A stretch of DNA of 64,000 nt, from assembly GCA_007133065.1 (NCBI GenBank), contig SLNJ01000056.1, positions 1 through 64,000 of the forward strand, written 5' to 3'. The first letter of the stretch is position 1. Every line of letters begins with the position of its first letter. This DNA comes from Opitutales bacterium (GTDB lineage: Bacteria; Verrucomicrobiota; Verrucomicrobiia; Opitutales; Oceanipulchritudinaceae). The translations under genes and the position numbers were made by a program. Shown here in pieces: positions 5,380-40,026 of the stretch. The notes below the pieces were generated by a model, which saw nothing but the letters and a program-made list of their open reading frames with translations, did no database searches and was not told where the DNA came from.

Positions 5380-5427
5380 ACGTACAAGAGCCGAGGCAAG
5401 CGGTTGTGTTGTCGCTTCCTGGACGAG

Positions 5428-5474
5428 CAGGCTGTTGGAAAACCGGGACGATCGCCCGGTTCTCCAACAGCCTG
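5428..5474. repeat. Perfect-looking 20-bp inverted repeat (hairpin)
   Basis: Arms at 5428-5447 (CAGGCTGTTGGAAAACCGGG) and 5455-5474 are complementary at 19 of 20 positions, with a 7-base loop. No T-run follows, so it is not a standard Rho-independent terminator, although it could stabilise the 3' end of the AsmA-like transcript. The CAGGCTGTTGRAAAA-type arm resembles short dispersed hairpins and transposon ends found in many genomes; that resemblance is from memory and unverified. No second copy was seen in the window. Confidence 0.7.
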
Positions 5475-5547
5475 CCAAGGCCTGGCTTCGATGGTGGGGT
5501 GTTTTCAGTTGCGACGGCGCGGGCAATCGACGTACAAGACAACCTAT

Positions 5548-6798: not shown

Positions 6799-6844
6799 GA
6801 TCCTGGTTTGACTCGCCATCCATTGTGTTCATTTTTTTAACACC

Positions 6845-7426
6845 ATGGAGCTTCCCAAGGCTACGTATCCTCCGTCGCTTCGCAAATGGATTGACCACGC
6901 GCCCGAGATGCCGCTGGGCCCCGGTGAGCCGGTCGAGGCGGGCGCCTCGCTTCGAGAGATGCCGCTTGAGGCGATCTTCGAGGAGGGAACGGTCCACGAC
7001 GCGGCCATGGCCCGCTGCTGTCTGGCCGGTCTCTTGCTGCGTTACAACTGGCTGAAGGCTTCGCATGCGTTGAGCCAATCGGTGCTGAATGCGACCGGGA
7101 GCTACTGGCACGGTATTATGCATCGTCGCGAGCCGGACTACGGCAACGCGAAATATTGGTTTCAAAAGGCTGGGAGCCATCCCATCTTTCCGCTCCTGGC
7201 AAATGCGGCGCATGAGTTGAACGACGCGTTCCGCCACGTGCCGGAGGCCGGTTTTCTGAGTGAACTGACGTCCTGGTCCCCAGGGGCATTTGTCGATCTC
7301 TGTGAGAACGTGATCGATTCGGGAAGCGAGGCCGAGCAGTTGGCCGTGCGGATACAGAGGGAGGAATGGGATCTTTTGATGGCTTATTCTTACTTAGCCG
7401 CCACCACAGCGCAGACGTCGCTATGA
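6845..7426 (+). CDS. Conserved-looking hypothetical protein between two sulfatase maturases
   Basis: A 193-aa soluble protein that I cannot assign to a named function. It has no signal peptide or membrane segment. The most distinctive stretch is SYWHGIMHRREPDYGNAKYW (near residues 88-107), followed by a Phe/His-rich HPIFPLL motif. Such a Trp/His/Arg cluster suggests a ligand- or metal-binding site, and I recall similar unnamed proteins in soil bacteria, but this was not checked. The stop codon overlaps the start of the FGE-type gene by 4 bases (ATGA at 7423), so the two are probably translationally coupled. A role linked to sulfatase or sulfated-substrate use is possible from context only. 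Confidence 0.7.
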   Translation: MELPKATYPPSLRKWIDHAPEMPLGPGEPVEAGASLREMPLEAIFEEGTVHDAAMARCCLAGLLLRYNWLKASHALSQSVLNATGSYWHGIMHRREPDYGNAKYWFQKAGSHPIFPLLANAAHELNDAFRHVPEAGFLSELTSWSPGAFVDLCENVIDSGSEAEQLAVRIQREEWDLLMAYSYLAATTAQTSL

Positions 7427-8412
7427 CGGAGGAACGCGGGACGAAGCGCTGCTGCACGCCTGCGAGCGGTCGGGAAGGCGCCGTGGCGGGCGCGGTGACG
7501 GATGTCGCCGTGGGGGGATCGACCCAAGGGATGATCCGCGTCGCGAGCGGGCGTTTTCTGATGGGAAACGAAGACGCCGATGCGTGGCTCGAGGATGGGG
7601 AGGGACCGGTCCGCGAGGTGCGGCTCGATGCGTTCTTTCTCGATGCCACGGCTGTCACGAACGCTGCGTTCGCACAGTTCGTTGACGCGTCCGGATACAT
7701 CACCGAGGCGGAGCGTTTCGCGTGGTCGTACGTGCACCAGAGCCGTCTGCCGAACCACCTGCGGCGGAGGATCGGGCAGGATCGTACCGTGGCCGGCCTG
7801 CGCTGGTGGTACGCGGTCGAGGGCGCGTGCTGGCGCAAACCGGAAGGTCCCGGATCCAACATCAAACGCCGCATGGATCACCCGGTGGTCCACGTCTCGT
7901 GGAACGATGCCGAGGCCTATTGCCGGTGGGCGGGCAAACGGCTTCCGACCGAGGCTGAGTGGGAATGCGCGGCGCGCGGAGGTCTGGAGCAGCGGAAGTA
8001 TCCGTGGGGCGACGAGCTTACACCGGCCGGAAAACACCGCTGTAACATCTGGCAGGGGCGTTTCCCGGACCGTGACACCGGAGAGGACGGCTATCGCGGG
8101 ACGGCTCCGGCGCGTGCATTCCGGCCGAATGCTTTCGGGTTCTACAACATGTCCGGCAACGTCTGGGAGTGGTGCGCGGACTGGTTCAGTCCCACCTGGG
8201 GCCTCAACGGATCCCGTGAAAATCCCCGCGGTCCGGATGTTGGAGAGGCCAAGGTCATGAAGGGGGGCAGCTATCTCTGCCACCACAGCTACTGCAACCG
8301 ATACCGCGTGGGCGCGCGGACCGCGAACACCTCCGACTCCTCCACCGGAAACTGTGGGTTCCGCTGTGTCGTGGACGTTTCGGATTCACAGTGCTGTATT
8401 GTGTCGCATTGA
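7423..8412 (+). CDS. Formylglycine-generating enzyme (SUMF1/FGE type)
   Basis: A 329-aa member of the FGE-sulfatase domain family. True FGEs use copper and oxygen to convert a sulfatase Cys into formylglycine. The catalytic pair is present: GGSYLCHHSYCNRYR with Cys286 and Cys291, the same spacing as the active-site pair of human SUMF1. Other family landmarks are MIRVASGRFLMGNE, DHPVVHVSWNDAEAYCRWAG, RLPTEAEWECAARGG, YPWGDE and NMSGNVWEWCADW. Many FGE-fold proteins lack these cysteines, so their presence argues for real maturase activity. I chose ATG 7423, which overlaps the upstream stop (ATGA); the frame could also start at 7366. This is the aerobic counterpart of the anSME two genes upstream. 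Confidence 0.88.
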   Translation: MTEERGTKRCCTPASGREGAVAGAVTDVAVGGSTQGMIRVASGRFLMGNEDADAWLEDGEGPVREVRLDAFFLDATAVTNAAFAQFVDASGYITEAERFAWSYVHQSRLPNHLRRRIGQDRTVAGLRWWYAVEGACWRKPEGPGSNIKRRMDHPVVHVSWNDAEAYCRWAGKRLPTEAEWECAARGGLEQRKYPWGDELTPAGKHRCNIWQGRFPDRDTGEDGYRGTAPARAFRPNAFGFYNMSGNVWEWCADWFSPTWGLNGSRENPRGPDVGEAKVMKGGSYLCHHSYCNRYRVGARTANTSDSSTGNCGFRCVVDVSDSQCCIVSH

Positions 8413-11152: not shown

Positions 11153-11992
11153 TTGACTCTGAAAACACAGAAAACACAAGAATTCGGCAAGAATCCCGTC
11201 AAAATGCGGGAAACCGATCACTATCGCCATGAGTACGTGCCTGGTTTTGTCGACAAGTGGGACGACTTGATCGACTGGGATCAGCGCGCCAAAACGGAGG
11301 GAGAATTCTTTATCGAACACCTGAAGGCGCGCGGCACCAAAACCGTTTTGGACGTCGCCGCCGGTACCGGGTTTCACTCGGTCCGCCTCCTGGAGGCCGG
11401 GTTCCGCGTCGTGTCGGCCGACGGGAGCAAGGAGATGCTCGGGAAGGCCTTTGATAACGCGTTCAGGCGAGGGCACGTGCTGCGAACGGTGCATGCCGAT
11501 TGGCGTTCCCTGAACCGCGACGTTCACGGTGAGTTCGACGCAGTGATCTGTTTGGGCAATTCATTTACGCACATGTTCGAGGAGCGGGATCGCCGGAAGG
11601 CGCTTGCGGAGTTCTACACCATGTTGAAGCACGACGGCGTGCTCATGCTCGACCAGCGCAATTACGATCGCCTGCTCGACGCGGGAGTCACCACCAAGGC
11701 AGGCAAGCACACGTACTACTACTGCGGGGACGACGTCACCGCCGAGCCCGAGCATGTCGACGAAGGTCTGGCCCGTTTCAAGTACTCGTTCAAGGACGGG
11801 GCCGAATACCACCTGAACATGTTCCCATTGCGGAAGAACTACACGCGCCGTCTGATGCGTGAGGTCGGGTTTCAAAAGGTCGAGACCTACGGCGATTTCC
11901 AGGAGACATACCGTGAGGACGAACCCGACTTCTTCATTCACGTCGCCGAAAAGTACTACGACGAAACCGAGGAGTTCCACCTCGATGACTGA
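11153..11992 (+). CDS. Glycine/sarcosine N-methyltransferase (GSMT)
   Basis: A 279-aa SAM-dependent methyltransferase that should carry out the first two steps of betaine synthesis: glycine to sarcosine to dimethylglycine. It matches the halophile GSMT family over its whole length: FGKNPVKMRETDHY, the SAM site VLDVAAGTGFHSVRLLEAGF near residue 65, ICLGNSFTHMFEE, LMLDQRNYDRLLDAG, KHTYYYCGDDV and YHLNMFPLRKNYTRRL. The start is taken as TTG 11153, because the family-conserved FGxxP segment lies upstream of the first in-frame ATG (11204). It is separated by about 680 bp from the corrinoid operon that contains the partner SDMT, so it is probably transcribed on its own. Confidence 0.88.
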   Translation: MTLKTQKTQEFGKNPVKMRETDHYRHEYVPGFVDKWDDLIDWDQRAKTEGEFFIEHLKARGTKTVLDVAAGTGFHSVRLLEAGFRVVSADGSKEMLGKAFDNAFRRGHVLRTVHADWRSLNRDVHGEFDAVICLGNSFTHMFEERDRRKALAEFYTMLKHDGVLMLDQRNYDRLLDAGVTTKAGKHTYYYCGDDVTAEPEHVDEGLARFKYSFKDGAEYHLNMFPLRKNYTRRLMREVGFQKVETYGDFQETYREDEPDFFIHVAEKYYDETEEFHLDD

Positions 11993-12671
11993 TTGAAGTT
12001 TCTCGAGCCCTTTGGAACGCGTTGCGCCGCTCACCTCGGTGCGATCGGGTGATCCGTGTCGAGCCCTGACTCAAAGTTGACCGTGTTTTCGATTCTTTGG
12101 GTTGGTTGTCTGCGGCGGTAGGGCAGAGCGGCGGAGCGAGCGGAGCTACAGAGCTGCGGAGCGGGGAGCGCGGTGCCAAACGGTCAACCCATGGCCGGGC
12201 CGGACCGTGGCGTCTGGGGGGTAGCGAGCGGGTCAACGACAATGATTCTTCGCTGTCCGCACGATGACCAGGCGTCCGCGCCGGGCCGTCTGTGCGGCAA
12301 GCTCAGCGTTGTACCTGTGCGGACCGGGTTGAGGCTTTGATGCAGCCTTCAAGGCCCTTGGGATCCGGTTTTGTTTTGTTGCACCCGTGATGCAATCCTC
12401 CGCTTCTGAGAAAAAAGCTTTACTCGATCTGAAAGCTGCGATTAAACTCCGGTAGGAGAGATAACAAAGATAGCTACGCAGAAGGATCAAGCCGCTGTGT
12501 TGCACATGGAAACCGGTCGCGTGAATAGCCGGAAGGGTTGGACACGCGCTCTGGCGCCGTCTTCGGGTGATTGAACCACCCGAACGCGGATTTTTGTGAG
12601 CAACGGCTGAAAAGATCAACAAAGAGGTATAACAGGAGACATTCCATCTCATATTCCAAGAAGGTATGACC
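11993..12671. other. Long leader/intergenic region before the corrinoid operon
   Basis: No gene is supported in this 679-bp stretch. It contains an inverted pair GTTGACCG (about 12077) and CGGTCAAC (about 12180), a G/C-rich low-complexity patch at 12118-12175, and a terminator-like hairpin near the end (see 12557-12595). Its length suggests a long 5' leader with regulatory structure. I compared it by eye with cobalamin, glycine, SAM and SAH riboswitch consensus elements and recognised none. Confidence 0.5.
12557..12595 (+). terminator. Terminator/attenuator-like hairpin upstream of the corrinoid protein gene
   Basis: Arms TTCGGGTG (12562-12569) and CACCCGAA (12577-12584) pair perfectly around a 7-base loop, with a possible outer CCG/CGG extension and TTTTT at 12591-12595. 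It sits 77 bp before the start of the corrinoid protein gene and far from the GSMT stop. A role as an attenuator of the operon is therefore as plausible as simple termination. Confidence 0.45.
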
Positions 12672-13331
12672 ATGACATTTGATATGAAAGAGATAGTAAA
12701 CGGTGTGATCAAAGGGAAGATCGACGAGGTTAAGGCCCTTGCCGAACAGGCTCTTAGCGAAGGCATCAGCCCTGAGGAGATTTCATCTCAAGGGCTCGTC
12801 GTCGGCATGGACGCCGTGGGCGAGCGCTGGAAGAACGACGAGATGTTCATGCCCGAGGTGCTGCGAAGCGCCAAAGCAATGAGCAGCGGGATGGACGTGA
12901 TCCGCGATCAGCTGGCCGAGAAGGACAACCAGGTTGGCACAATGGTGATTGGAACGGTCGAGGGCGACCTCCACGATATCGGAAAGGACCTGGCCGCTAT
13001 GATGTTCGAAGGGGCCGGCTATAAGGTGGTGAATCTCGGTGTCGATCAACCGAGCGAGGTTTTCATCGAAGCCGTAAAGGAGCACAGACCACAGCTGCTT
13101 GGAATCTCGGCGCTCCTGACCACGACGATGCCTCGGATGGGTGATATCATCAACGAGCTCAAGGAAGCGGGCATCCGCGAGCAGGTGACCGTGATTATCG
13201 GGGGTGCTCCGGTGACGGATGATTTCTCGGAATCCATTGGAGCCGATATCTATGCCCCCAACGCACGCAGCGGCGTCGAGCGTGCCCGCGAATTCTTCAA
13301 GAAGAAGTCGGCTGAGAGCGGTTCGAACTGA
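12672..13331 (+). CDS. Corrinoid-binding methyl carrier protein (MtgC/MttC type)
   Basis: A 219-aa cobalamin-binding protein of the methionine-synthase/MttC class. It shuttles a methyl group on cobalt between an MttB-family methyltransferase and a second methyltransferase. The helical cap domain occupies residues 1-85; the Rossmann B12 domain carries the DxHxxG motif GDLHDIGKD, in which His101 is the lower cobalt ligand, then LLGISALLTTTM and VIIGGAPVTDDF. I prefer ATG 12672 because AAGAAGG lies 7 bases upstream; ATG 12666 is in frame but only 1 base from it. It is the first gene of the corrinoid operon and the shared partner of both MttB homologues. Confidence 0.93.
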   Translation: MTFDMKEIVNGVIKGKIDEVKALAEQALSEGISPEEISSQGLVVGMDAVGERWKNDEMFMPEVLRSAKAMSSGMDVIRDQLAEKDNQVGTMVIGTVEGDLHDIGKDLAAMMFEGAGYKVVNLGVDQPSEVFIEAVKEHRPQLLGISALLTTTMPRMGDIINELKEAGIREQVTVIIGGAPVTDDFSESIGADIYAPNARSGVERAREFFKKKSAESGSN

Positions 13332-13350
13332 GGCATTGAGGAGCGATATT

Positions 13351-14805
13351 GTGAAAATGAACCAATCTATTAACCGAACGCCGCGATTCCGCGTGCTCTC
13401 GGATGACCAGATCGAGCGAATTTATTTCGCCGCCTTGGATGTCCTGGAGCGTGCCGGGGCGATGGTGTTTCAAGAGGACGCGCTCGAGCTCTTCCGCCAA
13501 AGCGATGCCGTGGTCGATACGAACAACCGGGTGCGCGTGCCGGCTTCAATGGTCGAGCAGGCTATTAAATTCTACCCGCGCAAGATTACGCTTCAGGGGC
13601 GCGACGGGGTGCGTTCGCTGCATATTCAGAAGGATTCGGCCTCGTTTGGAACAGGATCGGATCTGCCGTTCTGCTACGACCGCAAGACCGGCGAACGGCG
13701 CCGAACCACACTCGCGGATATCCGCGATGCGGCCCGCTTGTGCGATGTTCTGCCGAACATCGACTTTTTCATGAGCCACGGCATCGCCAGCGATGCGCCT
13801 CTGCCGGAAACCTACGACCGGCACCAGTTTCTGTCCATGCTGGAGGGGTGCACCAAACCGATGGTGGTCACCAGCGTCGATGGCGAGGGGTTGGAAGACC
13901 TTTGGCGGATGGCGTGCGTGGTACAGGGTGGAGAGGACGAATTCCGCCTGAACCCGCTTTTCGTTGCGTACATCGAGCCGATTTCGCCGCTCAAGAATGA
14001 TCGGACTGCCGTCGAAAAGCTGCTGTTCGCTGCTGAAAAAGGCATTCCGGCGATGTATACGCCGTGCCCGAGCGCGGGTGCGACTGCGCCGAGCACGATT
14101 GCAGGCATGCTCGTGCAGTCGCTTGCCGAAACATTGCTGGCGGTCGTCCTTTGCCACCTCAAGAAACCGGGCATGCCCTTGATCATGGGCGGGGTGACCA
14201 CGGTGCTCGATATGCGCAAATCAACGTATTCGTACGGCGCGCCCGAACTCTCACTGGCTTCCGCCGCCAACACGGATATTTCCAAATGGCTCAACCTGCT
14301 GATGTTCAGCACCGGTGGCTGCACCGATGCCAAAATCGTGGACGAACAGGCCGCGGCCGAGATGACGACGAGCCTCTTCTATGCTTCGCTCTCCGGGGCG
14401 AGTCTGATCCACGATGTGGGTTACATCGACAGCGGGACGAATGCCTCGCTCGAGGCCCTGGTGCTTAACGACGAGATCATCGGCATGTGTCGCCAGTTCT
14501 GCAAGGGCATCAACACCGAGAAGGAGTACCTCGCACTCGATCTTATCGACGAACAGGGACCGGGGGGCGAATACTTCACCACCGATCACACGTACGAGCA
14601 CTGGCGCGAGTGGTTTCTGCCCAAGCTGCAGGACCGTTCGGATTGGGAAACGTGGGTTGCCAACGGTTCCAAGAGTATGACCGATCGGGTCAACGAGCGC
14701 ACGCAGCACCTGCTGGATACCCACGAAACGGAACCGATTCCGGAGGATCTTCACAAGGCGATCAAGGAGATCGTGGATGCCGCGGACGCGCGGCACGCCG
14801 GGTAG
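13351..14805 (+). CDS. MttB-family methyltransferase 1, without pyrrolysine
   Basis: A 484-aa member of the trimethylamine methyltransferase superfamily. Non-pyrrolysine members such as MtgB transfer a methyl from glycine betaine or related quaternary amines to the corrinoid protein. Landmarks are NRTPRFRVLSDDQIERIY at the N-terminus, KPMVVTSVDGEGLEDLWRMA, YIEPISPLKND, YSYGAPELSLASAA, STGGCTDAKIVDEQAA and EQGPGGEYFTTDHT. There is no internal TAG, so it is not a pyrrolysine enzyme; its stop codon happens to be TAG. GTG 13351 has GAGGAG 7 bases upstream and is preferred over ATG 13357. The gene follows the corrinoid protein by 19 bp and is paralogous to the next gene. The true substrate is unknown. 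Confidence 0.88.
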   Translation: MKMNQSINRTPRFRVLSDDQIERIYFAALDVLERAGAMVFQEDALELFRQSDAVVDTNNRVRVPASMVEQAIKFYPRKITLQGRDGVRSLHIQKDSASFGTGSDLPFCYDRKTGERRRTTLADIRDAARLCDVLPNIDFFMSHGIASDAPLPETYDRHQFLSMLEGCTKPMVVTSVDGEGLEDLWRMACVVQGGEDEFRLNPLFVAYIEPISPLKNDRTAVEKLLFAAEKGIPAMYTPCPSAGATAPSTIAGMLVQSLAETLLAVVLCHLKKPGMPLIMGGVTTVLDMRKSTYSYGAPELSLASAANTDISKWLNLLMFSTGGCTDAKIVDEQAAAEMTTSLFYASLSGASLIHDVGYIDSGTNASLEALVLNDEIIGMCRQFCKGINTEKEYLALDLIDEQGPGGEYFTTDHTYEHWREWFLPKLQDRSDWETWVANGSKSMTDRVNERTQHLLDTHETEPIPEDLHKAIKEIVDAADARHAG

Positions 14806-14852
14806 CCTGCGAGCCGGCGCTATGATGCGACAATAATACAAAGGAGTTTACT

Positions 14853-16346
14853 ATGGGATGTACCCGAATGAACCTGACCGAGAACCGAACGCCCCACTTC
14901 GAGGTGCTTTCGGATGACCAGAAGGAGACGATCTATAACGGCATGATCAAGACCCTCAACACGACGGGGGCAAACGTGCATCACGAAGGGGCGCGCGAGT
15001 TGTTATACTCGCACGGTTGCGATGTGGATGGCATCCGCGTGCGCATTCCACCGCAGCTGGTGCTGCGGGCGCTGGCAAGCGCACCGCCGGTGACCGAGAT
15101 CTTCTGCTGGGACGGCGATTTGCGAAAGAAGATTCTCGTCGAGCGGGGCCGCAGCTATTTTGGTCCGGGACCGACGCCGCCGAACTTCATTGACCCTGAT
15201 ACGCTCGAACGGCGACCCTATTTGCGCAAGGATGCGACCACGGTGGCCCGGGTATGCGATGCGCTGCCGAATATCGGTTTTGTGCAGTCACTCGGATCGA
15301 TCAACGACGTAACGGGCCCGTTGGCCGATATCTATGAATTCGCGGACATGATCCGCAATACCACCACTCCGGTCATGAGCTGGTCCTTTGCCCGCGAGGG
15401 TTGTCGGGACCAACACCGGATGGCGATTGCCATGGCCGGGGGTGAGGAGAACTTCAAGCGCCGCCCGAACTACATCTTCTATGGGGAGCCGATTTCGCCT
15501 CTGGTCAGCGATTTCCACGCGATCGACAAGTGCATGTACTGTGCCGAGCACCGGGTTCCGCAGGTTTACAGTCCCTGCTCGATCGGCGGCGGAACGGTAC
15601 CCGCAACCCATGCGGGACAACTGGTGGTTGCGCTTTCGGAGTCGATGGTGGGTGTCGTTGTGGCCCAACTGCTCAACCCGGGCACGAGCATCATCATCGG
15701 GGGGGTGCAGTCGATCCTGGATATGCGCCACAGCATCTATTCCTACGGAGCGCCCGAGCTGAGTATTCTCAGCGCCGCGATGACCGAGATGGCTCACTAT
15801 TGCGGCCTGCCCATGTACTCCACCTCGGGCTGCACCGATACGAAGAAAATGGATGTCCAATCCGCGATGGAGGCTGCGTTCTCAATCAATGCAGCGATGA
15901 TGAGCGGCGCTGACTTCGTCCACGACAACGGCTATACAGAGTCGGGGATCACCGGTGATGTCTTTCAGACGGTGATGGACGATGAACTGATTGGTATGGC
16001 CCGGATCATCGAGAACGGTGTCGAAGTGACCGAAGAGACCATGGCGGTCGACGTGATTTGCAACGGCGGACCCGGTGGGCATTATCTACACGAAGACCAT
16101 ACAATGAAGTGGTTCAAGACGGACTGGACTCCCACTTTGATGGAGCGTGGCAGCTATGAAGACTGGGTCGCCGAGGGCAAGACCTCGATGAAAGACTGGA
16201 TTCTCGCCAAGACGCGCGATCTTATCGCCAATCACGAAGGACCGCGAGAGAAGGTGCCGGAGGAAGCCGATGAAGCGCTCGAGGAGATTCTTAAGGAGGC
16301 TGAAGCCCGCGTTGCCCAAGGGGCTCCTGAGACAAAAGCCGGATGA
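14853..16346 (+). CDS. MttB-family methyltransferase 2, without pyrrolysine
   Basis: A 497-aa paralogue of the preceding gene with the same order of motifs: NRTPHFEVLSDDQKETIY, YGEPISPLVSDFHAIDKC, YSYGAPELSILSAAM, STSGCTDTKKMDVQSAM and NGGPGGHYLHEDHTMKW. The two are diverged enough (TGGCTDAKI against TSGCTDTKK in the region facing the corrinoid) to suggest different substrates, for example betaine and another N-methyl compound. There is no in-frame TAG. A good ribosome site (AAGGAG) precedes ATG 14853. The 3' end overlaps the next gene by 4 bases. Confidence 0.88.
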   Translation: MGCTRMNLTENRTPHFEVLSDDQKETIYNGMIKTLNTTGANVHHEGARELLYSHGCDVDGIRVRIPPQLVLRALASAPPVTEIFCWDGDLRKKILVERGRSYFGPGPTPPNFIDPDTLERRPYLRKDATTVARVCDALPNIGFVQSLGSINDVTGPLADIYEFADMIRNTTTPVMSWSFAREGCRDQHRMAIAMAGGEENFKRRPNYIFYGEPISPLVSDFHAIDKCMYCAEHRVPQVYSPCSIGGGTVPATHAGQLVVALSESMVGVVVAQLLNPGTSIIIGGVQSILDMRHSIYSYGAPELSILSAAMTEMAHYCGLPMYSTSGCTDTKKMDVQSAMEAAFSINAAMMSGADFVHDNGYTESGITGDVFQTVMDDELIGMARIIENGVEVTEETMAVDVICNGGPGGHYLHEDHTMKWFKTDWTPTLMERGSYEDWVAEGKTSMKDWILAKTRDLIANHEGPREKVPEEADEALEEILKEAEARVAQGAPETKAG

Positions 16347-18394
16347 CGTACGCTATGAAGGAAACCGTTATCGGGATCGATACGGGAGGCACCTTCACCG
16401 ACGGCGTGCTGATGCGCTATTCGACACGGGAGGTGCTTTCGATCGCCAAGGTTCTGACCACGCACCACGATCTCAAGGAAGGCGTGATTCGCGTGATCGA
16501 TGCCCTCGAGATTGAGGAGGTCGACCATGTCAAGCTCGTGGGGATCAGCAGCACATTGGCGACCAACTCCATCGCTCAAGGGAGGAATCGGTCGGTAGGA
16601 CTTCTCCTGATCGGTTACGATCGTGAACTGGTGGAGCGATTCGAACTCGGCGAGAAACTCGGAGCCGACCGGATCGCATATGTGGCCGGCGGGCATAATG
16701 CCAGGGGAATTCCCCTGGCGGATCTGGACGAAGAGGCGGTTCTTGCGTGGATCGAGCGAATTGCCGGGGAGGTGGACGCGATCGCCGTCTCCAGTTATTT
16801 CAGCCCGCTGAATCCCGATCACGAACGGTGTGTTGAGGAGATGATCCGTGCGCGGTGCGGACTTCCGGTGGTGCTCGGGCACCAGCTCTCCACCCGGCTT
16901 GACTCGGTCCGTCGCGCCGCCACCGCCGCGCTCAACGCCTCATTGGTGGCGGTAATGCATGAGTTTGTGGACGCGGTTCATTGTTCGTTGCGCGAGCACC
17001 GCATCGCAGCCCCACTCATGATCGTGCGAGGCGACGGCACCCTGATGCCCTATGGAGAAGCGGTGCGAAAACCCGTCGAAACCGTGCTCTCAGGTCCGGC
17101 TGCCAGCGCCAACGGCGCCTGTTTCCTGACCGGGAGGCGGGATATGCTGGTACTGGACATGGGGAGCACCACCACGGATATGGCATTGGTCAGCGACGGT
17201 CGGGTGGTGGTCAGCGAAGCGGGAGCCCGGGTTGGTTCGACTCAAACCTCGGTGGAGTCGGCGCGCATCGTCACCCTGTGCGTCGGGTGCGACAGCCGGA
17301 TCGTCGTAGACCGTGACAATACCGTGACGGTCGGACCGGACAAGATCGTTCCCATTTCGCTGTTGGCCGCTCGCGAGCCCGAAGTCGCCCGTAAGATCAC
17401 CGCGCTCTCCGGCCAGAGCCCGGCGAACTGGCGTGCGACGGATGTTGAGTACTGGTTTCTCAGCAAGGAACCCGATGCCTCCGAGGTGGACGAGGATGAG
17501 GCCCGGGTTGTTGCCGCATTGCGAGATGGGCCGCGGAGTCTGACCGACCTGCTGGCCGCGTTCGGGGTGTATCACTACAGCCACCTTCGGGTGGAAGCGC
17601 TCTTTCGCTCCGGAATCGTCGGGGCCGCCGCGTTGACGCCGTCGGACCTGTTGCACGTGAACGGGACGATGGAGCTCTGGAACGAAGCAGTCGCCCGTCA
17701 GGCCGTCCGGGTGATCTGCCAGGTGACCGGCAGAAATCGCCAGGATTTCGTGGACGGCACGCTCGAGCGGATCGTGCTCATGATCGTTGAGCAAGCGATG
17801 ATCTTTCTGGCCTGCCAGGATCTCAGCAACACGGAGATGCCCGCGCGTGTCGATGGCAAATGGGGCCGCTGGTTGTTTGAGCAGATGACCGAAGGGACGA
17901 ACCCCTATCTCTCTCTGAATCTGGACAGTCGATACCCTCTGGTCGGGGTCGGAGCGCCGGCGAAGTTCTTCATAGGCAGGGTGGCCCGGATCCTTTCGGC
18001 ACCGTTCAATGCACCCCTGCACTACGAGGTCGCTAATGCTGTGGGCGCCGTGTCGGGATTGGTGATGGAAACGCGGGAGGCAATTGTCTTCGAGCGCGAG
18101 ATTGATGAAAAGCGCTGCTGCGTCGTGAAGATCGGCGGCGAGACACGGCGTTTCCCCGCGTGGGACGATGCCTGCGCGTTTGCCGAGGCACAGAGCTCTC
18201 GGGAGGCATGGCGCGCCGCCTCCGAGGCCGGGGCGACCGATCCGCAGGTCGAGATGGTCCGGCGACAGGAAGGTGGACTCTATCGTTTTCTGGCTCGTGC
18301 AATGGGCAATCCGCGCCTCTCCGAGGAGCGGAAGGATGCGGAAATAACGGACGAAAAGACAGGAGATATCCTATGCAAATCATTGGTGAGTTGA
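16343..18394 (+). CDS. Hydantoinase/oxoprolinase-family (ASKHA fold) protein
   Basis: A 683-aa protein whose N-terminal half matches the hydantoinase A/oxoprolinase family: VIGIDTGGTFTDGVLM (phosphate loop), GISSTLATNSIAQG, LSGPAASANGACFL and the second ATP loop VLDMGSTTTDMALVSDG. The C-terminal part (from about residue 370) is less typical. Members of this family sit in MttB-type operons, where they may be ATP-dependent activators or may open ring or amide substrates; the function here is unproven. A CVGCDSR cysteine pair near residue 313 could bind metal. ATG 16343 overlaps the upstream stop; ATG 16355 is an alternative. The end overlaps the MtgA-type gene by 22 bases. Confidence 0.75.
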   Translation: MTYAMKETVIGIDTGGTFTDGVLMRYSTREVLSIAKVLTTHHDLKEGVIRVIDALEIEEVDHVKLVGISSTLATNSIAQGRNRSVGLLLIGYDRELVERFELGEKLGADRIAYVAGGHNARGIPLADLDEEAVLAWIERIAGEVDAIAVSSYFSPLNPDHERCVEEMIRARCGLPVVLGHQLSTRLDSVRRAATAALNASLVAVMHEFVDAVHCSLREHRIAAPLMIVRGDGTLMPYGEAVRKPVETVLSGPAASANGACFLTGRRDMLVLDMGSTTTDMALVSDGRVVVSEAGARVGSTQTSVESARIVTLCVGCDSRIVVDRDNTVTVGPDKIVPISLLAAREPEVARKITALSGQSPANWRATDVEYWFLSKEPDASEVDEDEARVVAALRDGPRSLTDLLAAFGVYHYSHLRVEALFRSGIVGAAALTPSDLLHVNGTMELWNEAVARQAVRVICQVTGRNRQDFVDGTLERIVLMIVEQAMIFLACQDLSNTEMPARVDGKWGRWLFEQMTEGTNPYLSLNLDSRYPLVGVGAPAKFFIGRVARILSAPFNAPLHYEVANAVGAVSGLVMETREAIVFEREIDEKRCCVVKIGGETRRFPAWDDACAFAEAQSSREAWRAASEAGATDPQVEMVRRQEGGLYRFLARAMGNPRLSEERKDAEITDEKTGDILCKSLVS

Positions 18395-19173
18395 TTAACG
18401 CAAGTCGCAAATCGATCGGCAAGGCGATCAAGAATCGCGATGCTGCAATGATAGGGAGGATCGCAAAGCAGCAGGTCGCATGCGGCGCTGATTACGTTGA
18501 TGTCAATGCCGGGGTTTTTGTCGGTGATGAGGCCGAGTATCTCAAGTGGCTGGTCGAGACGGTTCAGGAGGCTGTGGACGTTCCGTGCGCCATCGACAGT
18601 CCCGATCCCAGAGCCGTGGAAGCGGCCCTCGCGGTCCACAAGGGCACGCCGATCATCAACTCGATCTCAATGGAGAAGGATCGACACGACAACCTGCTGC
18701 CAATCCTTGCCGGGACCGATCTCAAGGTGATCGCGCTGTGCGTCGAGGACGGTGCGATGCCCGAAACCAAGGAGGATCGCCTGCGTATTGCCGGCCGTCT
18801 GGTCGATGATCTGGTTCAGCATGATGTGCGAATTGAGAACATTTATATCGATCCGCTGGTTCAGCCGCTGGGTACAACGGATACCTGTGGCAAAGCGTTT
18901 CTTGATGCGATCGAAGCGATCCGCGAGACGTTTTCCGAAGCCCATACGATGTGTGGCCTGTCCAACATCTCCTATTGGCTGCCGAACCGCGGGTTCGCGA
19001 ACCAGATTTTCATGGCGATGGCGATCGCAAAAGGACTTGATGGCGCAATCGTCGATCCGCGTAATAAGCGAATGATGGCAACGATTCAAGCGGCCGAAAC
19101 GTTGATCGGACGCGATTCGTATTGCGAGAACTACCTGGAGGCCCACCGGAACAAGCTGTTTGAGTTTCCATGA
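18373..19173 (+). CDS. Methyltetrahydrofolate:corrinoid methyltransferase (MtgA type)
   Basis: A 266-aa pterin-binding (DHPS-like TIM barrel) methyltransferase. It should transfer methyl between the corrinoid protein and tetrahydrofolate, linking demethylation to central one-carbon metabolism. Landmarks are MQIIGELINASR, CGADYVDVNAGVF, PCAIDSPDPRAVEAAL, PIINSISMEKDR, IYIDPLVQPLGT and HTMCGLSNISYWLPNR, as in AcsE/MtgA enzymes. ATG 18373 has AGGAG 7 bases upstream, and the gene starts inside the end of the hydantoinase-like gene. The next gene, SDMT, follows after 31 bp. Confidence 0.9.
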   Translation: MQIIGELINASRKSIGKAIKNRDAAMIGRIAKQQVACGADYVDVNAGVFVGDEAEYLKWLVETVQEAVDVPCAIDSPDPRAVEAALAVHKGTPIINSISMEKDRHDNLLPILAGTDLKVIALCVEDGAMPETKEDRLRIAGRLVDDLVQHDVRIENIYIDPLVQPLGTTDTCGKAFLDAIEAIRETFSEAHTMCGLSNISYWLPNRGFANQIFMAMAIAKGLDGAIVDPRNKRMMATIQAAETLIGRDSYCENYLEAHRNKLFEFP

Positions 19174-19204
19174 TTCAACTCCGGAGAAAAAGAGAGGACA
19201 AGAA

Positions 19205-20044
19205 ATGAGTATTGATGGCAATAACGAGGACCTGGTCGATAAGACGAAGGCGTATTACGACAGTGACGACGCGCAGCAATTCTACTATTGGCTGTGGGGC
19301 GGGGAAGACCTCCATCTGGGAATCTACGAGCGCAAGGATGAGTCGATTCGGGACGCGAGCCGGAAAACCGTGATGCGGATGGCGTCGCTCTTGCCGAAGC
19401 TTGATGCGGACACCCGGGTGCTCGACTTGGGAGGTGGTTTCTCGGGATCAGCTCGCGCGCTGGCCGGCGAGTTCGGGTGTTCGGTAACGGTGCTTAATCT
19501 GAGCGAGCGCGAGAACGAACGCGGTCGGCGCATGAACAAGGAGAGAGGCCTGGACCACCTCATTACCGTTTACGACGGCAATTTCGAGGAAGTGCCCTTT
19601 GAGGACGACCGCTTCGATGTGGTCTGGTCGCAGGACGCCTTTCTGCATAGCGGCGATCGGAAGCGCGTGCTGGCCGAAGCGGTACGGGTGCTGGCGCCCG
19701 GCGGGCACCTGGTCTTTACCGATCCGATGATGACAGATGATTGTCCGAAGGATGTGCTACAGCCGATTTTCGACCGCATTCATCTCTCCTCTCTCGGCAG
19801 CCCCGGGTTTTATCGGAAGGCCGCGGAGGAGGTGAAATTGACGCTGTGTGAATACGTTGATCTCGATCCGCACTTGCCGATGCACTATCAGCGGGTTCTG
19901 GAGGAGACCGAGCGCAATGAGGCGCGGATCAAAGGCGAGATCTCAGAGGAATACATTGAGAATATGAAGAAGGGATTGCGCTACTGGATCGAAGGCGGTC
20001 GGAACGGCTACTTGACTTGGGGGATCTTCCTCTTCCGGAAATGA
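19205..20044 (+). CDS. Sarcosine/dimethylglycine N-methyltransferase (SDMT)
   Basis: A 279-aa SAM-dependent methyltransferase of the SDMT family from halophiles. It methylates sarcosine and dimethylglycine, giving glycine betaine. Family matches run the whole length: YYDSDDAQQFYYWLWGGEDL, the SAM motif RVLDLGGGFSGSARALAGEF, LNLSERENERGRRMNKERGL, VWSQDAFLHSGDRKRVLAEA, HLVFTDPMMTDDCPKDV and GRNGYLTWGIFLFRK. The start is ATG 19205, with a GA-rich ribosome site (GAGAGGA) upstream. It lies directly behind the MtgA-type gene and before the corrinoid activator, so the last step of betaine synthesis is embedded in a demethylation operon. Its partner GSMT is about 7 kb upstream. Confidence 0.9.
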   Translation: MSIDGNNEDLVDKTKAYYDSDDAQQFYYWLWGGEDLHLGIYERKDESIRDASRKTVMRMASLLPKLDADTRVLDLGGGFSGSARALAGEFGCSVTVLNLSERENERGRRMNKERGLDHLITVYDGNFEEVPFEDDRFDVVWSQDAFLHSGDRKRVLAEAVRVLAPGGHLVFTDPMMTDDCPKDVLQPIFDRIHLSSLGSPGFYRKAAEEVKLTLCEYVDLDPHLPMHYQRVLEETERNEARIKGEISEEYIENMKKGLRYWIEGGRNGYLTWGIFLFRK

Positions 20045-20155
20045 CCCGTCGGGTATGCAGTTACGAGGTTTCCCGAATCGCTTTGACGGTGCATCCCACC
20101 GTGTGGTGATACCCGCCCCGCAGCAGCCTTCCAAAGAACAGCCCATGAGGAAATC

Positions 20156-22126
20156 ATGACGGACTCCCCTGAAAAAACGCGAATGACGGCTCCGCACACG
20201 ATCTCAAATCCGGAGAAACGGGTCAGAGTCACGTTCGTGCCATCGGGGCGCTTCGTGCAGGAAATGCCGGGGACATCACTTCTCGAGACGGCCGCACGGG
20301 CGGGTTTTATCATCGAAACACCCTGTGGCGGGAATGGATCCTGCGACAAATGCAAGGTGAGGGTCGTCAAAGGGAAGCCGGAGGCCACCGAGATTGAGCA
20401 CGACCGCCTCACAGCCGCTGAACTGAACGAGGGATCCCGCCTTGCATGCCAAGTTTCCGTGGATCATGAGATGGAGGTTGAGCTCTATCCCGAATCGCTT
20501 CTCTCGGACCACCATAAGATCCTCATGGACGGGATGGAGGCGAGGGGCAAACTCGATCCGGTTGTGAGCAAGGTTTATTTTGATCTGCCGCCATCCGACC
20601 GGCGACTTCCGAAATCGGATTTGGAACGGTTGATGAGCGCGATCGGGGATGTGCGGGTCGGGTTAAGCCAGTTGCGGCGTATTCCGTCATTCATGCGAAA
20701 GAACAACTGGCGTGGCACCGCGGTGATCGCGGACGGCTCCCTCTTGCGCCTTGAGCCGGGCGACACGTCCGGCGAGCTCTTCGGGATTGCCTTCGATATC
20801 GGCACGACCTCGATTGTTGGTACGCTGATGGACCTCGCCACCAACAACGAGCTGCTGGCGGTCTCCGAACTCAACCCGCAGATCACGTTCGGGGATGACG
20901 TGGTGAGCCGGATTCTTCGGGTTCGCGATGACCCCGAAGCGCTCGTGGAGCTCCAGGAAGCGATTATCGGGACCCTTAACGGCATGATCGCTCGCATGAC
21001 CGAACGCATGCGCATCTCTCCCAATCGTATATACGAAGTCAGTGCGGCCGGGAATACGACCATGCAGCAATTGCTGTGCGGCCTGGACTGTTCAGCTCTC
21101 GCTCAAGTGCCTTTCGCACCGGTTTTCTCCAGGGGGCAGCGTTTTCAGACGGACAAACTCGGGTTGCACCTCAACCCCGATGCGCTCCTGTACGTGTTCC
21201 CTCAGATCAGCGGATTTGTAGGAGGCGATACGGTTGCGGCGCTACTGGCCTCACGGATGATTCACCGGCGCGACACCTGCCTGCTCATCGATATCGGGAC
21301 GAACGCCGAAATCGCCGTCCGTCGGGGCGATGCGCTGTTCGCAACGTCGACGGCCGCGGGTCCGGCTTTCGAAGGTGCACGTATTACGAACGGGATGCGA
21401 GGCCGTATCGGCGCCATTGAGAAGGTGGTGATCGACAGGGACGTTCATCTGAATGTGATCGGCGATGCTCGTCCGATCGGCCTGTGCGGCACAGCCCTGA
21501 TCGATACGGCGGCCGAATTGCTCAGGCACGGTTATCTCGATCCATTGGGACGGCTGGTTTCCGACGATGATCTTCCGGCTGATACTCCTCCGTCGATACG
21601 CCGCCGTTTCATCGGGGAGAAATCCGAGCGGCGCTTTATCCTCGCTTTTGAGGATGAGACGGGGTCCGACAACGACGTCGCTCTCTGGCAACCCGATGTG
21701 CAGGAACTGCAGTTGGCGTCCGGTGCGATCCGAGCGGGGATCAACATTGTGCTTCGCAAGATCGGTATCACTGCCGACGAACTGGACGAGGTGCTTCTTG
21801 CCGGTGCATTCGGCAACTTCATCCGTCGTGCGAACGCCCGTCGCATCGGGATGTTGCCGCAGGTGCCGGGAGATCGCATCAAGTTTATCGGGAACTCGAC
21901 ACTCCTGGGAGCCAAGCTCGCGCTGCTCTCGCAGGACAAACAAGAGGAGGCCGAGACGATCCAGCGCATGGCCCAGCGTATCGATCTATCCGGCGATGCG
22001 GATTTCCAACGCGAATTCGCGGATGCCATGGTGTTTCCCGATGGCGACCTCGACCGATGTCGTGACATCCCAACCTTTGCCGGCGCCCGGGAGAATGCCA
22101 TTGTGGTGCCGGCGCCCCCCGAGTGA
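20156..22126 (+). CDS. [2Fe-2S] corrinoid-activation protein (RACo-like)
   Basis: A 656-aa reductive activator of corrinoid proteins, which restores Co(I) from inactive Co(II) using ATP. An N-terminal plant-type [2Fe-2S] ferredoxin domain has cysteines C57, C63, C66 (ETPCGGNGSCDKCK) and C98 (LACQV). The rest is the DUF4445/ASKHA ATPase: FGIAFDIGTTSIVGTL near residue 210, NPQITFGDDVVSRI, AAGNTTMQQLL, CLLIDIGTNAEIAV, AAGPAFEGARI, ELQLASGAIRAGI and GAFGNFIRRANA. Size and domain order match RACo. The start ATG 20156 follows a GAGGA ribosome site. It serves the corrinoid protein of the same operon. Confidence 0.92.
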   Translation: MTDSPEKTRMTAPHTISNPEKRVRVTFVPSGRFVQEMPGTSLLETAARAGFIIETPCGGNGSCDKCKVRVVKGKPEATEIEHDRLTAAELNEGSRLACQVSVDHEMEVELYPESLLSDHHKILMDGMEARGKLDPVVSKVYFDLPPSDRRLPKSDLERLMSAIGDVRVGLSQLRRIPSFMRKNNWRGTAVIADGSLLRLEPGDTSGELFGIAFDIGTTSIVGTLMDLATNNELLAVSELNPQITFGDDVVSRILRVRDDPEALVELQEAIIGTLNGMIARMTERMRISPNRIYEVSAAGNTTMQQLLCGLDCSALAQVPFAPVFSRGQRFQTDKLGLHLNPDALLYVFPQISGFVGGDTVAALLASRMIHRRDTCLLIDIGTNAEIAVRRGDALFATSTAAGPAFEGARITNGMRGRIGAIEKVVIDRDVHLNVIGDARPIGLCGTALIDTAAELLRHGYLDPLGRLVSDDDLPADTPPSIRRRFIGEKSERRFILAFEDETGSDNDVALWQPDVQELQLASGAIRAGINIVLRKIGITADELDEVLLAGAFGNFIRRANARRIGMLPQVPGDRIKFIGNSTLLGAKLALLSQDKQEEAETIQRMAQRIDLSGDADFQREFADAMVFPDGDLDRCRDIPTFAGARENAIVVPAPPE

Positions 22127-38095: not shown

Positions 38096-39271
38096 ATGGA
38101 ACTCGATGCCAGTAACCGAACCTTCCCACCATTCAGTCTAAAACGCCTGCTACAGACCTCCTTTGGTCCGGGGCAGGGCGAGCGGGTTTGTATTCTGATC
38201 GACCTCCCCGATCCGAAATCAATCAAAGACTTTGCGTTTCGCGACGACCCGTCCCTTGCGATCCAGAACTACGGCTATGAAGTCTTCTACAAAGGACTGC
38301 AAGACGGCGGTCTCGAGGAGATGAACTACACCGGCGGCGAGATTTTTGCCTATCGCGAGGTCGGGGGCAGCAATCTCGACTTGGACGATGACTGCTACGA
38401 TCCGGAGGGACGGGAGTTCAGCTTGGAGCGCGATATCTATCCGAACTATCAACTCGTGCTCGTCGTCTCCACTTACTCGGCGACGGCTCCCCTGACGGCG
38501 CAGGCCAAGCGTTTCGGGTTTCGCGGCGCCACCCTCCATGGCCTGAACCAAGTCATCCTCGATACCGGCCTCTCGGTCGACTACAAGCAGGTCAGCGCGG
38601 ATGCAGAAAAGCTCCGCCGGGGGCTTACACGCGCCGATCACTTCGAGCTCGATTTTGAGTGCGAGGGCCAGAAGACAACCTTGAAGCTCTTATGCAATGG
38701 GCAGGAGGCCCAGAAATCCCACGGTCTCTGTCCGCCCGGAACGCCGGACGTTGCGAACCTGCCTGCCGGCGAGGTCTACTTCGTCCCGGAGGGTGCGGAG
38801 GGGAAGTTTCCCTTTAAATACGGAGAGGAGACAGTCGGCCTGCTCGATGTGGAGGGAGGCAAAGTGGTGAGGTCGACCCTCATCTACGGAGATTACGAAC
38901 GAATCCGCGAGCACAACGAACGCCTCGTCGACGATCCCATGGTCGGTGCGATCGGCGAACTCGGATTCGGGACACAGGTGCTTCCTTTCTCCGGCCGGGA
39001 TATTCAGGATGAGAAAATCCTCGGAACGGTCCACGTCGCGACGGGGCGCAGCGACCATCTCGGTGGTACGCTGACCCCTGATTTGTTCAAACAGAGAAGG
39101 AACGCCTCACACGACGATGTTCTTTACGCGCCCCATAAGACACCCGAGGTGCGCTTGCCCGAGGTGCGCATGGTGCGGGGCGGCGAGAGCACGGTGATAC
39201 TTCAGAACTACAAGCCGGCCGATTATCTGATCGGCCTGCTCGAGAACGATCGAGCCGCCGCGCAGCCGTGA
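38096..39271 (+). CDS. M29-like aminopeptidase family protein
   Basis: A 391-aa soluble protein whose C-terminal half resembles M29 (AmpS/AmpT) aminopeptidases: NLPAGEVYFVPEGAEG, IGELGFGT, DEKILGTVHVATGRS and SHDDVLY carry the Glu, Glu, His and His-x-Asp expected for two-metal binding. The N-terminal half is diverged from classical M29 enzymes. It overlaps the next gene, an OvoA-type methyltransferase, by 4 bases (GTGA), so the two are likely translated together; it may hydrolyse a peptide or amide in the same pathway. That link is inference. Confidence 0.65.
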   Translation: MELDASNRTFPPFSLKRLLQTSFGPGQGERVCILIDLPDPKSIKDFAFRDDPSLAIQNYGYEVFYKGLQDGGLEEMNYTGGEIFAYREVGGSNLDLDDDCYDPEGREFSLERDIYPNYQLVLVVSTYSATAPLTAQAKRFGFRGATLHGLNQVILDTGLSVDYKQVSADAEKLRRGLTRADHFELDFECEGQKTTLKLLCNGQEAQKSHGLCPPGTPDVANLPAGEVYFVPEGAEGKFPFKYGEETVGLLDVEGGKVVRSTLIYGDYERIREHNERLVDDPMVGAIGELGFGTQVLPFSGRDIQDEKILGTVHVATGRSDHLGGTLTPDLFKQRRNASHDDVLYAPHKTPEVRLPEVRMVRGGESTVILQNYKPADYLIGLLENDRAAAQP

Positions 39272-40026
39272 GCGATCCATCCAACGATTACGAATCCGGG
39301 GAACTCCTCAGTCAGTACCTGATATTTCACTACGGAACCACGGAGGACCGCATGCCCTGGAAGTTCGGTCCCAGGCTTACGGAATCGTTCCCGGAGTCGT
39401 GTGTGCGACTACTTTTGGAAGCCGGACTCCGGCCGGACGGCCGGGCGCTCGATGTCGGTTGCGCAGTTGGCGCCGCGGCCTATGTGCTCTCCAGGAGTAT
39501 GTCCGCGGTTCGAGCTGTAGACACCAGTCAATCGTTCACCGCGGCGGCCGAGCGGATCGGGCGGGAGGGTCGGCACCCGGTCGACCTGATTTTTTCGGGC
39601 GATATCAGTCGACGGATCGACGTGGTGCTTCCGGTGGGCGCTCAGCCCGAACGCGTCCGGTTTGAGACGGGCGACGCCCATGCGCTTCCCGAAGCATGGT
39701 GCGATTTCGACGCCGTTCTGGCGTGCAACCTGCTCTGCCGCATGGCGCGCCCTGCGGCGTTCCTCGAACAACTCCCGCACCTGGTTCGTCCGGGAGGGTT
39801 GTTGCTCCTTACAACGCCCGGGACGTGGCTCGAGAGCTGTACCCCGCGTGAATTCTGGATCGGCGCCACTCCTGAACGCGGAGCGCCGCTGGAAGCCCTG
39901 AAGGCGGCCCTGGGCGACGACTTCACTCTCGAGCAACGCGTGGACCAGCCCTTCTGCATCCGCGAGCACCTGCGCAAGTATCAGTGGAGCGTGGCGGAGG
40001 CGACCCTCTGGAGGCGGAAGACGTAA
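39268..40026 (+). CDS. OvoA C-terminal-type 4-mercaptohistidine N1-methyltransferase (stand-alone)
   Basis: A 252-aa SAM-dependent methyltransferase matching the C-terminal domain of OvoA, which N-methylates 4-mercaptohistidine in ovothiol synthesis. Typical segments are YESGELLSQYLIFHYGTTED, RALDVGCAVGAAAYVLSR, VRAVDTSQSFTAAAERIG, RVRFETGDAHALPE, AVLACNLLCRMARP and TPGTWLESCTPREFWIG. In OvoA this domain is fused to a sulfoxide synthase; here it is separate, and no sulfoxide synthase lies in the window. The start is GTG 39268, overlapping the upstream stop. The partner gene may be elsewhere, or the substrate may differ. Confidence 0.72.
   Translation: MSDPSNDYESGELLSQYLIFHYGTTEDRMPWKFGPRLTESFPESCVRLLLEAGLRPDGRALDVGCAVGAAAYVLSRSMSAVRAVDTSQSFTAAAERIGREGRHPVDLIFSGDISRRIDVVLPVGAQPERVRFETGDAHALPEAWCDFDAVLACNLLCRMARPAAFLEQLPHLVRPGGLLLLTTPGTWLESCTPREFWIGATPERGAPLEALKAALGDDFTLEQRVDQPFCIREHLRKYQWSVAEATLWRRKT

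Follow-up and report, generated by a model that had tools for sequence, protein, structure and literature searches.

To our knowledge, the EgtB/OvoA-type family, together with its selenium kin, is the only one known to place sulfur or selenium on C5 of the histidine ring. Methyltransferases homologous to the C-terminal domain of OvoA are already known as stand-alone proteins, namely OvoM, which works in trans with OvoA, and OvsM. The introduction of PMC12631010 names OvoA alone for the insertion of sulfur at histidine C5. Here we describe two overlapping genes, P1 and P2, from an Opitutales bacterium of the phylum Verrucomicrobiota (assembly GCA_007133065.1, contig SLNJ01000056.1, positions 1 to 64,000; this whole stretch of 64,000 nucleotides is called the window). 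P2 encodes a stand-alone methyltransferase of the OvoM/OvsM type, and P1 a metalloenzyme-like protein that accompanies it across the phylum. We consider it probable, if only just, that the two genes encode two steps of an OvoA-free ovothiol-type pathway in which P1 supplies 5-thiohistidine.

The P1-P2 locus and its distribution

P1 (38096-39271, plus strand) is an open reading frame (ORF) with an ATG start that encodes 391 amino acids (aa) of an unnamed family with a predicted M29/NicX fold. P2 (39268-40026, plus strand) has a GTG start and encodes 252 aa, a stand-alone S-adenosylmethionine (SAM)-dependent N-methyltransferase of the OvoA-C/OvoM/OvsM family. The 4 bp overlap GTGA (39268-39271, plus strand), as read from the sequence, holds the start of P2 and the stop of P1, an arrangement that suggests translational coupling; a promoter scan found none. 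The first-pass annotation of this DNA had proposed a stand-alone gene for an OvoA-C-type methyltransferase, overlapped by an M29-like hydrolase. The methyltransferase is confirmed as a full-length family match, and the overlap and the M29/NicX fold of its partner hold as well, but P1 does not fit an M29 peptidase by its residues, as it lacks a tyrosine essential to the M29 peptidase LmAmpII.

A contig scan with P1 that covered all phyla found close relatives only, and the best 80 of 207 loci were kept, with P1 identities of about 60-77%. Their labels were Opitutales, Puniceicoccaceae, Pedosphaera and other Verrucomicrobiota, the exceptions being one contig labeled plain 'bacterium' (L069) and one labeled Phycisphaerales (L061), whose P1 (8001-9131) is 71% identical to that of the window and may reflect misbinning or transfer. 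A P2 relative was present in 58 of the 80 P1 loci, many of which are cut by contig ends. The two genes lay less than 500 bp apart in 51 of the 58 paired loci, five of these having the same 4 bp overlap, and were separated by 1.1-6.4 kb in the remaining seven.

Genome searches were confined to one phylum, taken as Verrucomicrobiota from the labels of the contig scan. In a first sample of 145 genomes, P1 (>550 bits) was found in 18, the OvoA C-terminal methyltransferase model TIGR04345 (>140 bits) in 22, and the OvoA N-terminal domain model TIGR04344 (over its cut-off) in four. The 18 P1 genomes were the 18 genomes with a stand-alone methyltransferase, and the other four methyltransferase genomes were the OvoA genomes. 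At E <= 0.001, TIGR04345 matched in 106 of the 145 genomes, the matches under 140 bits being short or weak (up to 51 bits), and nine further genomes gave weak matches to the P1 profile (best 22-83 bits) that, judged by match range, are ordinary M29 proteins and the sister family described below.

The searches were then extended to 387 genomes, a set that appears to include the first sample, with thresholds of E <= 1e-60 for P1 and E <= 1e-25 for TIGR04345, and with the TIGR04344 cut-off. P1 was found in 57 genomes, the methyltransferase in 75 and OvoA in 18. All 57 P1 genomes carried a P2-type methyltransferase, and P1 without a methyltransferase occurred in none of the 387 (Fisher 6e-61 for P1 with the stand-alone methyltransferase, a value that ignores kinship and overstates). 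No genome contained both P1 and OvoA, and the 18 methyltransferase genomes without P1 were exactly the 18 OvoA genomes. P1 and the methyltransferase were on one contig in 46 of the 57 genomes and on different contigs in 11, and two pairs on the same contig were distant (17 kb apart in G199 and 460 kb in the single-contig genome G254), so that the link is not merely physical. Within families f7 and f8 the two genes were jointly present or absent, and they were found together in 16 families, unlinked cases included. The pairing thus goes well past what chance would give. These observations support a functional coupling of P1 and P2, and the co-occurrence in 57 of 57 genomes supports the earlier suggestion of a split ovothiol-type pathway without OvoA.

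The methyltransferase P2 and its alternative partners

P2 matches the NCBIfam model TIGR04345 over its full length with 166 bits (E 1e-48), 4 bits short of the curated cut-off of 170, and is thus outside the family by score; five relatives tested from the P2 clade score above the cut-off, among them L097 (genome G078) with 226 bits and L152 with 238 bits. Its best relatives in the PDB by sequence were OvsM (9bxh, E 9e-51, residues 5-250), OvoA (8khq, 1.6e-36) and OvoM (9bxl, 1e-30). An AlphaFold2 model of P2 (predicted local distance difference test, pLDDT, 90.4; 26 sequences in the alignment) matched OvsM 9bxk with Z 31.8 and a root mean square deviation (rmsd) of 1.6 over 238 aligned residues, and 5-thiohistidine-bound OvoM 9bxn with Z 31.1. 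The model gave Z 30-32 to OvsM, OvoM and OvoA, and the next fold match was the carnosine N-methyltransferase CARNMT1 at Z 19.3. P2 therefore resembles OvsM and OvoM over its full length in both sequence and fold. Thirteen selected P2 residues (Y17, N154, R158, P184, W187, T192, W197, R232, E233, R236, K237, Q239 and W248) all match OvoM 9bxl. Eighteen of the 23 positions that are invariant in 13 known family rows are retained in >=90% of 40 P2-type rows, and the P2 of the window differs at one of the 23, with Ser75 in place of Ala.

A methyltransferase tree of 79 rows was produced with IQ-TREE and given a midpoint root for drawing only; a 24th fused row (L151), which stood alone at the root in an earlier tree, was excluded as too long. 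The P2 side formed its own clade (support 100/95), and OvsM, OvoM and the 23 fused rows made up the other side (100/95), with OvoM nested inside the OvoA group. P2 is thus like OvoM (9bxl-9bxn) and OvsM (9bxh, 9bxj, 9bxk) in length, fold, conserved motif and in being encoded by a stand-alone gene, but differs from them in forming its own clade under the midpoint root and in having as its partner P1, rather than OvoA or the selenium enzymes. P2 and the C-terminal domain of OvoA are homologs along their whole length; however, the sulfoxide synthase domain is missing from the P1-P2 pair, and P1 bears no resemblance to OvoA. An OvoA in the same genome, as expected of an OvoM, was found in none of the 57 P1 genomes and accompanies seven P2-clade members that lack P1. 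We consider it highly probable that P2 methylates 5-thiohistidine.

Those seven members are second, stand-alone TIGR04345 proteins encoded elsewhere in the genome in seven of the 18 OvoA genomes. They fall on the P2 side of the tree in two separate places, the ones from family f5 joining the Opitutales P2 (99/95). In all seven genomes the fused methyltransferase domain of OvoA is degraded: in the numbering of the window P2, E233, K237 and P184 are changed in all seven, Q239 in six, N154 in five and R158 in four. Among the 11 OvoA genomes that lack a stand-alone copy, ten retain these six residues (Fisher 2.5e-4 for a decayed domain with a stand-alone copy, again ignoring kinship and overstated). 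The OvoA proteins with a decaying fused domain number eight (L177, L180, L182, L184, L170, L171, L173 and L096).

An amino-acid-type ATP-binding cassette (ABC) transporter follows the stand-alone methyltransferase in four of the seven cases (L152-L155; L152 by Pfam, the others by eye). In six of the 80 loci the same ABC binding protein, 55% identical, is found after P1-P2, which gives L152-L155 the appearance of a P1 operon from which P1 is missing. These sequences are most naturally read as one 5-thiohistidine methyltransferase served by either OvoA or P1; with P1 and OvoA as alternative partners of one methyltransferase, P1 becomes a candidate source of 5-thiohistidine. That P1 functionally replaces OvoA appears to us fairly probable.

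The genome of the window (3.68 Mb in 162 contigs, 94% complete) was searched for EgtB/OvoA-type synthases, as the first-pass annotation had proposed. No TIGR04344 sulfoxide synthase was found over the cut-off either in the window, in agreement with that annotation, or in the genome as a whole, where the best match reached 47 of 400 bits. Four FGE-domain proteins were found in the genome at E <= 0.001. The best match is an FGE-type protein of the window (7366-8412); it was rejected as a sulfoxide synthase on its weak TIGR04344 match and its FGE-sulfatase domain by Pfam. It ends a row of three genes (5404-8412) that also contains a radical SAM/SPASM protein and a 193-aa ORF. A sulfoxide synthase elsewhere in the P1 genomes was likewise rejected, as none was found over the TIGR04344 cut-off in the 57; two of them, G078 (one contig) and G008, gave zero TIGR04344 matches at E <= 0.001. 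The P1 genome G134 has an apparent EgtB-EgtD pair (L185, 230-2522), named by eye, and its 126-bit TIGR04344 match, which reads as the EgtB, was rejected as OvoA. The bacterium may thus have ergothioneine alongside the product of P1-P2.

Fold and metal site of P1

Profile and sequence searches did not place P1 in a described family. Its score to Pfam M29 (PF02073) was 10.7 bits against a cut-off of 27, and it gave no NCBIfam match at E <= 1; with no Pfam FGE-sulfatase match and a model of M29/NicX fold, it does not resemble an EgtB/OvoA-type sulfoxide synthase. Searches of PDB sequences by phmmer and by profile gave chance-level matches only, and a plasmid search returned nine records, none covering 80% of P1, with a best identity of 30.7%, to the haloarchaeal aminopeptidase-like gene described below. 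An AlphaFold2 model (pLDDT 93.0, predicted template modeling score, pTM, 0.89; 35 sequences in the alignment) was nearest to NicX 7cn3 (Foldseek E 7.5e-14; Z 26.3, rmsd 3.8, 308 aligned), and the best M29 match was AmpT 2ayi (Z 18.5, rmsd 4.0, 298 aligned). The crocagin proteins CgnE (Z 13.2) and CgnB (Z 11.8) also matched, and the remaining matches listed were at or below 7.1.

NicX is described as a mononuclear non-heme Fe(II) 2,5-dihydroxypyridine 5,6-dioxygenase that opens an N-heterocycle, its iron ligands being His265, Ser302, His318 and Asp320 (PMC7910607), and VppE is reported as a NicX relative (PMC5003870). The M29 residue set is EEHYHD, each member of which, the tyrosine included, is given as essential in the peptidase LmAmpII (PMC7023490). 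CgnB, which is M29-like, binds two zinc ions, and CgnB and CgnE act in making the peptide natural product crocagin, with no peptidase activity observed (PMC10070186).

The site of P1 was mapped in an alignment with VppE from a Shinella plasmid, three members of the sister family and six ordinary M29 proteins, with VppE aligned to 7cn3 to carry over the NicX numbering. Seven P1 residues (E226, E288, H313, D320, H321, H339 and D341) are invariant in 81 of 81 sequences. P1 has five of the six EEHYHD residues and lacks the M29 tyrosine in all 81 sequences; the invariant pair D320/H321 adjoins the place of the missing residue. Two of the four NicX iron ligands are matched (H339 and D341 correspond to His318 and Asp320), and E288 and A315 align with the other two. 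Because the tyrosine is absent and only two of the four NicX ligands are matched, P1 is, by its defining residues in the alignment, a member of neither M29 nor NicX. Its site is carboxylate-rich and could hold two metals.

NicX and VppE thus provide the nearest solved fold and share the C-terminal His-x-Asp ligands, but they are 12-13% identical to P1, which has Glu, Glu and His where NicX has Phe, His and Leu, and Ala for Ser302. With the M29 aminopeptidases (AmpT, PepS, AmpS and LmAmpII) P1 shares the fold (Z about 18) and the five residues, but it is set apart by the missing tyrosine and by a Pfam score far under the cut-off. CgnB and CgnE share the M29-like fold, but are smaller than P1 and belong to a peptide-natural-product pathway, and we know of no link between them and a thiohistidine methyltransferase. 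Among the 54 loci with both genes, that of the window included, the median pairwise identity was 69.9% for P1 vs 50.8% for P2. The stronger constraint on P1 fits a demanding reaction, although it proves none.

The sister family of P1 consists of proteins of about 360 aa with a GRSEHLGG motif that also lack the M29 tyrosine (L123, 616-1698; L124, 598-1677; L126, 382-1443, minus strand). It was matched in four genomes (G047, G074, G115 and G121), two of which also have P1. A haloarchaeal plasmid of Salinigranum rubrum (L144, 3093-9345) encodes a P1-like 'aminopeptidase' (5770-6726) among DUF917, DUF1177, AroM and racemase genes, another M29/NicX-type protein, in a different and perhaps catabolic cluster.

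Elsewhere in the window, a Pfam scan of 11153-22126, which left out the genes between 16346 and 20156, identified corrinoid methyl-transfer genes, two of them for MttB-type proteins and one each for a methyltransferase, a B12-binding protein and a RACo-type activator.

A candidate OvoA-free ovothiol-type pathway and its alternatives

In the pathway we propose, P1, as a metal enzyme of M29/NicX fold, would use O2 to join a thiol, most simply cysteine, oxidatively to C5 of histidine, at a putative metal site of Glu/Glu/His/(Asp/His)/His/Asp. If cysteine is the donor, an ordinary pyridoxal phosphate (PLP)-dependent C-S lyase would then remove the cysteinyl part to leave 5-thiohistidine, and P2, with SAM, very probably methylates the imidazole Npi of 5-thiohistidine to give ovothiol A or a close relative. 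We regard the case for P1 itself making the C-S bond as evenly balanced. We propose more tentatively, and with some doubt, that P1 founds a new class of C-S-forming metalloenzymes unrelated to EgtB/OvoA, and with it a second independent route to ovothiol, and that certain lineages exchanged P1 for OvoA but retained P2.

The genomic setting of the putative oxidative step and of the C-S lyase was assessed by counts in the 145-genome sample (18 genomes with P1, four with OvoA and 123 with neither). A heme-copper oxidase was present in 18 of 18 P1 genomes, four of four OvoA genomes and 28 of the 123 others (Fisher 1e-10), and a PatB-type C-S lyase over the cut-off in 16 of 18, four of four and 38 of 123, respectively (Fisher 3e-6); both values ignore kinship and overstate. 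In the genomes sampled, the carriers of P1 are thus oxygen respirers; this allows for the use of O2 by P1 but does not demonstrate it. The distribution of PatB tracks lineages and the gene is missing from two P1 genomes, so that its support is weak.

Several observations weigh against this pathway. The five M29 metal ligands (E226, E288, H313, H339 and D341) are retained by P1 in 81 of 81 sequences, whereas NicX itself has lost two of them and changed one, and the chemistry of P1 may for this reason be hydrolytic. The link to oxidases would fit any antioxidant, and the two P1 genomes in which PatB over the cut-off is missing are G078 and G008. The lack of overlap between P1 and OvoA is not significant when taken alone (2.65 shared genomes expected, Fisher 0.088). 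Seven of the ten intact fused domains have His in place of R236, so that a change in the motif alone is no proof of a dead domain. The eight decayed fused domains form one clade (100/100), and their decay therefore represents one or a few events rather than seven; the one exception among the 11 OvoA genomes mentioned above, G128, belongs to this clade, has a decayed domain in an OvoA divided between two reading frames, and gave no stand-alone copy. In P2 itself, position 234 is His in 42 of 46 P2-type rows, vs Thr in the three PDB rows (OvsM, OvoM and OvoA). The P2 of the window deviates from the usual residue at positions 69, 73, 75 and 110 and has the longest branch in the P2 clade (1.08); by its sequence it is a diverged member of the clade.

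The retained ligands lead to the most substantial alternative, that P1 is a hydrolase, as the first-pass annotation had it: another enzyme would make the C-S bond on a histidine within a peptide or conjugate, P1 would free 5-thiohistidine and P2 would methylate it. The role of the M29-fold proteins CgnB and CgnE in the synthesis of a peptide natural product, as outlined in PMC10070186, is in keeping with this. But the tyrosine whose loss kills LmAmpII (PMC7023490) is missing throughout P1, the model is nearest to NicX, and P1 swaps with OvoA; a hydrolase would also require an extra enzyme to explain how P1 genomes manage without OvoA. No third gene is as widely shared near the 80 loci, many of them contig-cut, with the exception of antisense ORFs of P1 and P2; the next shared neighbors, an upstream sugar-transferase-like gene at 39 loci and its own neighbors at 24-25, read as the synteny of one lineage. 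An unlinked third partner could exist, as this search covered neighborhoods and was not extended genome-wide. On these data we regard the hydrolase as unlikely, and of the earlier interpretation the split pathway is supported and the peptidase-type release of a precursor is not, the five retained ligands being the part of it that still speaks for hydrolysis.

It is also conceivable, but quite improbable, that the product is another imidazole compound, with P2 methylating histidine or, in the manner of CARNMT1, a histidine dipeptide and P1 making, cleaving or ring-opening it. The next-best folds to P2 are carnosine N-methyltransferases, CARNMT1 among them, and NicX opens an N-heterocycle (PMC7910607); against this, P2 is far nearer to OvsM, OvoM and OvoA and carries their motif, and enzymes of its clade occur in the seven genomes whose OvoA methyltransferase domain is decayed. 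A variant of the ovoselenol pathway is suggested by the fact that OvsM is the closest PDB sequence to P2, but OvsM groups with OvoA and OvoM outside the P2 clade. SelD (TIGR00476) over the cut-off was found in two of 14 controls but in none of the 22 genomes searched, which included 18 P1 genomes, and TIGR04348, which we take to be the SenB model, was not found over the cut-off in the window genome, nor in any of the 14 controls. The selenium genes expected of such a pathway were thus not found, the thiol product favored by the first-pass annotation is supported over a selenium one, and we consider the selenium variant very improbable. Equally improbable in our view is that P1 and P2 stand together by descent only, with no shared function. 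All genomes searched belong to one phylum, in which close relatives share both genes, but the joint presence or absence within f7 and f8, the spread over 16 families with unlinked pairs, and the lack of a P1-only genome among the 387 are difficult to reconcile with descent alone.

A literature search, which covered few subscription papers and preprints, found nothing linking ovothiol with Verrucomicrobia, 5-thiohistidine with an aminopeptidase, or OvoM with ovothiol, and the papers matched by OvsM were unrelated to judge by their titles. Within the reach of this search, the new findings are the P2 clade and its association with P1, together with the non-overlap with OvoA and the swap of partners.

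P1 is a widespread family, with members in 57 of the 387 Verrucomicrobiota genomes, and its role is directly testable with two genes. If the proposed pathway is correct, a second, unrelated enzyme would mean that the synthesis of ovothiol arose by convergent evolution, P1 would offer a new biocatalyst for the insertion of sulfur into imidazoles, and ovothiol makers that searches with OvoA miss would be added among the Verrucomicrobiota.

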